Shown here in pieces: positions 31,855 through 33,574 of a stretch of DNA of 59,244 bases. A program made the translations under genes and the position numbers. The DNA is from Lentisphaeria bacterium (GTDB taxonomy: Bacteria > Verrucomicrobiota > Lentisphaeria > Oligosphaerales > Oligosphaeraceae). The notes beneath the pieces were generated by a model that saw only the letters and a list, made by a program, of their open reading frames with translations, was not told the origin of the DNA and did no database searches. Where the stretch lies: NCBI GenBank assembly GCA_024405215.1, contig JAKSPB010000019.1:1-59244 (forward strand). Direction: 5' to 3'. Position 1 is the stretch's first letter, and every line of letters starts with the position of its first letter.

Positions 31855-31937
31855 ACAGGACCTGGCACGCCCCTACAGCCGCCATTCGGCGGCGAAGGAT
31901 AGAATGCTTTCGTTTCATGGGAAGTTTTTCGTTCGTC
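31855..31937 (-). repeat. REP-like palindromic unit C1
   Basis: Core GCCGCCATTCGGCGGC at 31878-31893 (6-bp stem, 4-base loop). Flanked on one side by CCTGGCACGCCCCTACA and on the other by GAATGCTTTCGTTTCATGGG. The same unit recurs at 33205-33287 in the same orientation and, inverted, near 32165, 32271 and 33413. Confidence 0.8.
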
Positions 31938-32048
31938 GGAATTTGTGATTAGGTTATATGCCCTTAATACTACATATAGTGGTTACGGGCATAGGGACTG
32001 ATACTAAATAAGGGCATTTGCAATGTTGAAGACAGGGCAAATGCCCTT

Positions 32049-32230
32049 ATTTTTAATCTTTTTTTCTGGTTTGTAGTTCGCGTCAAAATCTTTGCAAAGT
32101 GCGCCGTCCTGCAATTTCCCCCAAAACCGCCTCCCAGCCTTTCTGCAATGCAGCCTGCGACCTCGCCGCCGAATGGCGGCTGTAGGGGCGTGACAGGCCC
32201 TGGCAAATTCGCCGTTCCAGAATCCTCCCG
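32049..32230 (+). repeat. 183-bp direct repeat R1 with REP-like unit C2
   Basis: About 95% identical by eye to 33295-33478. Both start at ATTTTTAATC and end at AATCCTCCCG. The palindromic core is at 32165-32180, followed by TGTAGGGGCGTGACAGG. Together with R2 it brackets the RAYT-like gene. Confidence 0.85.
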
Positions 32231-32300
32231 ACAGAAAACTTCCCAAAACCACGAAAGCATTCGATTCCTCGCCGCCGAATAGGCGTGACAGGTCCTGTCA
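32231..32300 (+). repeat. Degenerate REP-like unit C2b
   Basis: Contains AAAACTTCCC, GAAAGCATTCGATTCCTC and GCCGCCGAAT directly joined to AGGCGTGACAGG (32271-32292). Compared with C2, about a dozen bases of the second stem arm are missing, so the palindrome is broken. Confidence 0.65.
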
Positions 32301-32381
32301 CAGCGCGTGACGGCGCACTTTGACACGCATTGATTCACACTGAATATTTCGCAGGTGCCAACCCAAAGCATCTAGAAACAA

Positions 32382-33041
32382 TCAGGAATGTTTCGCGGAA
32401 GATGTAAACAGCCTGTTATCTTCTCGCAAGTATACTGGAATAGATTGATCTCCTCGCGGATTCGCTAATATATACTTGACTGTTTTCCGCAACTCGAACG
32501 GCGATCTGACAATTCTGGTAAAAGAGCCTTTCATCCATATCTTTTTTCTGCATCCGAGAATATCAACGATTTTTTGAGCTGTAACGCTTTTGATATTTCG
32601 CAGAAGAGTGTCAACTTGATAATCATCAAACATTTTCAGAAGAAGATGAATATGATTCCGCATAATGACAAAAGCACCTATCTGGCATTCTATTTCATCA
32701 TGAGAAAGAATTTCTTCGGAGACGCAGTTCCGTATGTCATTTCTACCCAAGAGGCATTCCCCTATCCCTTGCGCAAGCCAATATTCTAGTTTATGAAAGA
32801 TGCTCCGTTCTGCAAAAATCCCTCTTGTTCTTTCTGCTGGATGGACATTCCGGAATTCATGATATTCCAACAGAAGTTCCTGAAGAACCTGTTGGGGAAT
32901 GGAATCGGCGAGACGAAAGCAAATATTATAAAATCGACCTGGCTGCCGAAACAACGGCATGGCGTGTCCTGTGCTTGTGATGGTAGTAATGTCGCGATTC
33001 GAGGAATAGTAGAATCCACTTGAATAAGGAGGTATCAGCAT
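32382..33041 (-). CDS. REP-associated tyrosine transposase (RAYT)-like protein
   Basis: 219 residues from ATG 33041; the frame stays open upstream but there it runs through repeat DNA. The N-terminal FYNICFRLADSIPQQVL resembles the FVTFRLADSLP opening of RAYTs. The metal-binding HUH motif is present in MRNHIHLLLKM (about residues 129-131). The C-terminal end RSPFELRKTVKYILANP matches the RD-E-EL-x3-x-YI-x-NP region of IS200/IS605-related RAYTs. The segment that normally carries the catalytic Tyr (WQ-x2-Y-x2-x-I-R) reads WMKGSFTRIVR, with no Tyr, so strand-transfer activity is doubtful. Codon usage is more A+T-rich than the neighbours. It is surrounded by REP-like units, its likely cognate sequences. 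Confidence 0.82.
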   Translation of the reverse strand: MLIPPYSSGFYYSSNRDITTITSTGHAMPLFRQPGRFYNICFRLADSIPQQVLQELLLEYHEFRNVHPAERTRGIFAERSIFHKLEYWLAQGIGECLLGRNDIRNCVSEEILSHDEIECQIGAFVIMRNHIHLLLKMFDDYQVDTLLRNIKSVTAQKIVDILGCRKKIWMKGSFTRIVRSPFELRKTVKYILANPRGDQSIPVYLREDNRLFTSSAKHS

Positions 33042-33204
33042 TTTTTCACAATCCAAAAATTGAGATTCATGAGATAAAATAGCACAGGCACTGATGTCTG
33101 AAGACGAAAAAACTTTCAGAGCCCCTTTTTCCATGCAGTTGTCATTGTCGTGGTGCTTAGCGTCAATACGAGTCAGAGGAAGTTCCTGACCGGGACGATG
33201 CGCT

Positions 33205-33287
33205 TTGCCAGGGCCTGTCACGCCCATACAGCCGCCATTCGGCGGCGAGGAATAGAATGCTATTGTTTCATGGGAAGTTTTCCGTCC
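33205..33287 (-). repeat. REP-like palindromic unit C3
   Basis: Core GCCGCCATTCGGCGGC at 33231-33246, preceded by GGGCCTGTCACGCCCATACA and followed by GAGGAATAGAATGCT and TTTCATGGGAAGTTTT, closely matching C1. Confidence 0.8.
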
Positions 33288-33294
33288 GGCGGGG

Positions 33295-33478
33295 ATTTTT
33301 AATCTTTTTTTCTGGTTTGTAGTTCGCGTCAAAATCTTTGCAAAGCGCGCCGTCCCGCAATTCCCCCCCAAAAACCGCCCCCCAGCCTTTCCGCAATGCA
33401 GCCTGCGACCTCGCCGCCGAATGGCGGCTGTAAGGGCGTGACAGGTCCTGGCAAATTCGCCGTTCCAGAATCCTCCCG
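33295..33478 (+). repeat. 183-bp direct repeat R2 with REP-like unit C4
   Basis: Second copy of R1. The palindromic core is at 33413-33428, followed by TGTAAGGGCGTGACAGG. Differences from R1 are scattered substitutions and a few single-base indels. Confidence 0.85.
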
Positions 33479-33574
33479 CCGGAACAACCCCTCAAATCGT
33501 ATGTTTCATGAAAATATGGGATGGCTATGGAAGGGAATGATGAAATACCTGAATTGCCTACGTGTTCAAATCGG

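Follow-up and report, generated by a model that had tools for sequence, protein, structure and literature searches.

In class-2 Y1 transposases, which include the RAYTs, the catalytic tyrosine has been placed in a Y---NP motif (PMC6006769), and in the Escherichia coli enzyme, TnpA_REP, the Y115F substitution serves as the catalytic mutant (PMC8266576). Known RAYT guide tags, i.e. GTAG or GTGG, sit 5' of the hairpin (PMC8266576), and several residues of the E. coli segment W94-R104 touch the GTAG guide (PMC6006769, PMC8266576). The REPs of TnpA_Y1 subclass 2.7 are long and carry a 5' GT[AG]G (PMC6006769). Double-palindromic TIRs around RAYT-like genes have furthermore been described as TIRtrons (PMC3733652), and the locus presented here is therefore regarded as a system of a known kind. 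To judge from its sequence, it is very probably a REPtron or TIRtron, consisting of an intact class-2 Y1 (RAYT) HUH nuclease/transposase and cognate repeats dispersed between genes.

Organization of the locus

The window, i.e. the whole analyzed stretch of 59,244 nucleotides, contains a RAYT-type gene (P0001) between two modules of repeat units, with the following features:

31856-32236, no strand: left module, made up of units 1 and 2, a common spacer and an insertion of about 110 nt, with direct repeats D1-D3
31856-31895, minus strand: repeat unit 1 (hairpin 1 at 31878-31893, tag TGTAG)
32163-32202, plus strand: repeat unit 2 (hairpin 1 at 32165-32180, TGTAG, hairpin 2 at 32186-32200)
32271-32300, plus strand: repeat unit 3 (hairpin 1 broken, no GTA tag)
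32382-33041, minus strand: RAYT-type Y1 transposase gene P0001, 219 aa (Pfam Y1_Tnp, 1.5e-7; 4er8 profile match, 9e-9)
32472-32474, minus strand: codon for Y190, predicted to be the catalytic tyrosine (E. coli Y115 in the alignment)
32505-32537, minus strand: segment W169-R179, WMKGSFTRIVR (aligned with E. coli W94-R104, where the guide tag is contacted, rather than with the nucleophile)
32646-32654, minus strand: HUH motif H130-I131-H132 (His invariant in 139 relatives)
33209-33484, no strand: right module, made up of units 4 and 5 and a spacer as in the left module, with direct repeats D1-D3
33209-33250, minus strand: repeat unit 4 (hairpin 1 at 33231-33246, TGTAT, hairpin 2 at 33211-33225)
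33411-33450, plus strand: repeat unit 5 (hairpin 1 at 33413-33428, TGTAA, hairpin 2 at 33434-33448)

The palindrome GCCGCCATTCGGCGGC is exact in hairpin 1 of units 1, 2, 4 and 5, and a broken copy lies at 32271, which bears out an earlier sequence-only reading in which at least five units surrounded the gene in both orientations. When each of the four intact units is read from hairpin 1 towards its tag, the orientations are minus and plus to the left of the gene, itself on the minus strand, and again minus and plus to its right. Each module thus consists of two inverted units with a common spacer, and the aligned parts of the two modules are 88-95% identical. The inner units 2 and 4 form a 47-nt inverted repeat around the gene, with 98% complementarity.

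Read 5' to 3', a unit consists of hairpin 1, one base, GTAN and hairpin 2, i.e. a double hairpin. Hairpin 1 takes the form GCCGCC-GAAT-GGCGGC and variants thereof, while hairpin 2 occurs as GGGC-GTGACAG-GCCC, GGGCG-TGTC-CGCCC and others, so that both loop and stem differ between units. What follows hairpin 1 is TGTAG, TGTAA or TGTAT; the fourth base of the tag can be any base, and is G only in a minority of tags. According to the sequence-only reading, a GTAG-like tetranucleotide borders the stem in the manner of REP/RAYT systems. GTAN does adjoin the stem, but it lies 3' of the palindrome that had been seen; it is also directly 5' of a second hairpin that had been overlooked, and it mostly ends in a base other than G.

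The insertion of about 110 nt (window 31945-32060, plus strand) is found in the left module only and contains two stem-loops. Related copies occur at position 51600 of contig C15 in the same genome (G000) and in two other genera (G020 and G021), and a consensus fold of five sequences has 44 pairs, eight of them with both sides changed in at least one sequence. A small RNA, a terminator and a small mobile element are the candidates for this element. Searches against Rfam returned no family for the region, this element included, and the single sub-threshold match was taken as chance.

The transposase gene and its active site

The start of P0001 at 33041 was placed by the ortholog in G028, a genome of the same genus, with which the protein shares 59% identity. 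A longer open frame of 329-369 aa was rejected as the real gene, as its additional N-terminus crosses repeat unit 4 and as the start of the ortholog corresponds to position 33041. Besides the Pfam match, a profile built from seven relatives found E. coli TnpA_REP (4er8), which was also the first match for structure models predicted from 7 and 34 sequences (E 1.4e-6 and 1.2e-5; mean pLDDT 69 and 79, respectively), with modest TM-scores of 0.41-0.54. The NCBIfam model REP_Tyr_transpos gave 46.4 bits, below its cut-off of 80, which is an equivalog cut-off for naming and not a functional criterion. By sequence and predicted fold, P0001 is thus assigned to the RAYTs (class-2 Y1 transposases), with E. 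coli TnpA_REP as its nearest solved relative.

The sequence-only reading had correctly reported the HUH motif, NHIHLLL, and a segment reading GSFTRIVR, which it took for the site of a missing tyrosine nucleophile. This last claim is wrong, since Y190 corresponds to E. coli Y115 and GSFTRIVR to the guide-contact segment. In the 4er8 alignment, Y190 is matched by E. coli Y115 and N194 by N119, while S173 and F174 of GSFTRIVR pair with F98 and W99. Y190 lies within KYILANP, as part of the motif Y190-I-L-A-N194-P195, and 138 of 139 relatives likewise have Tyr at this position. In the predicted fold, Y190 is situated in a helix following the strand that bears GSFTRIVR; its putative placement near the HUH site is based on the 4er8 alignment and on this predicted helix. 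The tyrosine is therefore indeed elsewhere than had been expected, but at a position that is normal for RAYTs, and Ser or Thr as the nucleophile is ruled out by the presence of Y190. A relative that truly lacks the tyrosine was found at another locus (L269, G218:C55:27140-27685), with QHIEDNP where others have Y-I-x-x-NP, and has GTAG-tagged hairpins nearby.

The repeat family in the genome and the genus

In the 2.98-Mb genome there are 11 exact copies of the palindrome GCCGCCATTCGGCGGC, compared to none of a reversed control, so the palindrome is not confined to the locus. The longer unit has matches at about ten loci, with near-identical units at separate loci, and hairpin-bearing units were found outside predicted genes wherever genes were callable by a simple coding-score gene call. 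Together with the Y1_Tnp and 4er8 matches, these counts uphold the earlier proposal of a REPtron-like system, in which a RAYT is accompanied by repeats of its own, spread between genes across the genome. The host had been proposed to be a PVC bacterium, in agreement with which a Pontiellaceae strain is among the phylum-level relatives by shared DNA, Pontiellaceae being a PVC group (NCBI).

REPs usually exceed 100 copies per genome. The present family has fewer, and its unit count is a lower bound because several units sit at contig ends. Repeat units lie about 600 bp or less from the ends of contigs C42, C50, C58, C67 and C78; the assembly probably breaks at repeat units, with the copy number underestimated as a result.

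A loose core, GGCNGTANGGGCG, was matched 16, 39 and 24 times in three genomes of the genus, with 11, 6 and 0 matches of the reversed controls, while the control equaled or exceeded the matches in each of 26 other genomes of the family. With 16 matches against 11 for the control, the loose core is weak evidence by itself in G000, where the double-hairpin structure is the stronger evidence. Among the sites read, both hairpins were present at 8 of 14 in G000, 9 of 23 in G027 and 10 of 20 in G028, compared to 0 of 28 in other genomes of the family. The core is kept within the genus, while the sequence of the palindrome differs from genome to genome.

Certain arrangements of the repeats were seen in single genomes. 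Tandem arrays with a 68-69 bp period are present on four contigs of G027, namely C44, C57, C111 and C133 (loci L103, L104, L111 and L112); the arrays include the GGCGGTACGGGCG core as well as hairpin 2, and several are located at contig ends. In G028, the unit GCCGC-GCA-GCGGC-AGTAA lies in a block, about 150-160 bp in length, that is present in two direct copies (L035 2281-2600; G028:C239:7536-7854), and this duplicated block is located upstream of the ortholog only.

Alternative explanations

The proposal that P0001 is a RAYT without a catalytic tyrosine, either domesticated or using another residue, is almost certainly wrong. GSFTRIVR does occur both in P0001 and in the G028 ortholog, but this segment lacks the nucleophile in RAYTs generally, the active E. 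coli TnpA_REP having F98 and W99 there and using Y115; with Y190 present, the proposal is already refuted on sequence. Domestication is further contradicted by the intact HUH motif, Y190/N194 motif and predicted fold, and by apparent selection on the gene. Between P0001 and the G028 gene the differences per codon position are 75:52:140 (dN 0.37, dS saturated), a pattern suggestive of purifying selection. This codon-position bias, a frame that is open without stops, invariant active-site residues and near-identical units at separate loci also speak against a decaying relic surrounded by leftover repeats, with no present movement. Such a relic, which we hold to be unlikely, would agree with the single copy of the gene in the genome, with the varying loops and stems of the units and with P128R beside the HUH motif, a change absent from the G028 ortholog. 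It would also agree with G027, where the repeats are present and no P0001-like gene was detected in an assembly that is 88% complete.

Very improbable, too, is a role of the palindromes as common transcription terminators or as RNA hairpins with no tie to the gene, as might be suggested by GC-rich hairpins between genes. No T-run follows the hairpin, the tag is conserved and accompanied by a second hairpin, both orientations occur within pairs, the gene is flanked in inverted fashion, and no Rfam family was found; a plain terminator reading was consequently rejected. The REPtron/TIRtron reading has points counting against it as well, namely the REP_Tyr_transpos score below cut-off, the failure to detect a P0001-like gene in G027, a GTAN instead of a GTAG tag, an R176 that in most relatives accompanies a GG-type tag, P128R, and the loose-core count in G000 relative to its control.

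Comparison with known systems and proposed mechanism

P0001 and its repeats are similar to E. coli TnpA_REP and its REPs in the HUH, W and Y---NP motifs and in the predicted fold, as well as in the gene lying between inverted repeats with dispersed intergenic copies. They differ in that M170, T175 and R176 take the places of E. coli Q95, E100 and H101, and in that GTAN lies between two hairpins, whereas the E. coli GTAG is 5' of one bulged hairpin; nor was an E. coli-like C-terminal tail recognized. With subclass 2.7 of TnpA_Y1 (PMC6006769) P0001 shares NH[IV]H, W, a YI[LR]xNP-like motif, a length of about 213-219 aa and an HUH-to-Tyr distance of 60, and no C-terminal extension domain was recognized; judged by motifs and length alone, it resembles this subclass. 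The TIRtrons with their TIRYT genes (PMC3733652) are alike in having a RAYT-like gene between long inverted repeats with two palindromes each, corresponding to the two self-complementary tracts found here, and in copies that are moderately abundant and arranged as dimers and clusters. Compared by repeat layout, they are unlike the P0001 system, which has kept a GTA-type tag between the palindromes. With its predicted catalytic tyrosine in place, the system is largely a conventional one, if with a slightly uncommon arrangement of repeats.

With the HUH, W and Y190-x-x-x-N194-P motifs and a predicted RAYT fold in place, a mechanism may be inferred from studied RAYTs in which hairpin binding is followed by cleavage by Y190 at a site set by the guide, and then by strand transfer. 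The protein would bind the hairpin of a repeat in single-stranded form, e.g. on the lagging-strand template, and the adjacent GTAN would act as a guide that helps to select the cleavage dinucleotide. For the Marinomonas enzyme, this dinucleotide is reported to follow the fourth tag base by complementarity. A metal would be held by the two His and N194, and attack by Y190 would yield a 5'-phosphotyrosine and a free 3'-OH, after which strand transfer would copy or move units and so give rise to pairs and clusters. As the substrate we weakly prefer GTAN directly 5' of hairpin 2, on account of the known guide polarity, and give this about an even chance; the alternative substrate is on the opposite strand, where NTAC and one further base precede hairpin 1 on its 5' side.

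Guide contacts and a possible guide-tag code

The guide-contact residues, together with a GTAN tag between two hairpins, are mildly unusual. The Met at position 170 (E. coli Q95) also occurs in 26 of 139 relatives, while T175 (E. coli E100) is found only in the genus, all of these relatives except the G028 ortholog having Asp or Asn. Possibly, though the chances are against it, the genus has seen a joint change in the guide-reading site (E. coli Q95, E100 and H101 to M, T and R) and in the repeat, in which case the protein would read GTAN between two hairpins rather than a GTAG at the base of one hairpin, and the guide specificity within a repeat family found throughout the genus would be altered.

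Guide-contact position 176 (R in P0001, H101 in E. coli) was the best single protein column for tag type in a first set of loci, in which one rule was applied to call tags at hairpins recurring near the genes of the relatives. Tags of GT- and GG-type (e.g. GGAG) were distributed 23:0 with His176 and 3:31, thus mostly GG-type, with Arg or Thr (Fisher 5e-13). Since the pattern was first spotted by eye in this set, only a second set is independent, consisting of 51 further loci under the same calling rule: here the ratios were 19:0 for His and 2:16 for Arg/Thr, or 17:0 and 2:15 (p 1.5e-7) after removal of loci overlapping the first. Pooled, they are 40:0 and 5:46, so that residue 176 predicts the second tag base (loci L119-L199 and L225-L275), with exceptions at L134, L150, L164, L235 and L257. 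On a weakly supported tree there are only about four tag changes and five residue changes, and the counts may therefore reflect descent. Some of the GG-tagged repeats may be the TIRs of PMC3733652; the string 'GGAG' had no occurrence in the RAYT literature searched.

These results remove the false lead of a catalytically odd RAYT and add a genus-level REPtron in a PVC phylum. The segment once mistaken for the active site aligns with the guide-tag reader, and across relatives the identity of one of its residues goes along with that of the second tag base; should bench work confirm this, it would provide a testable specificity code for the choice of repeats by RAYTs.
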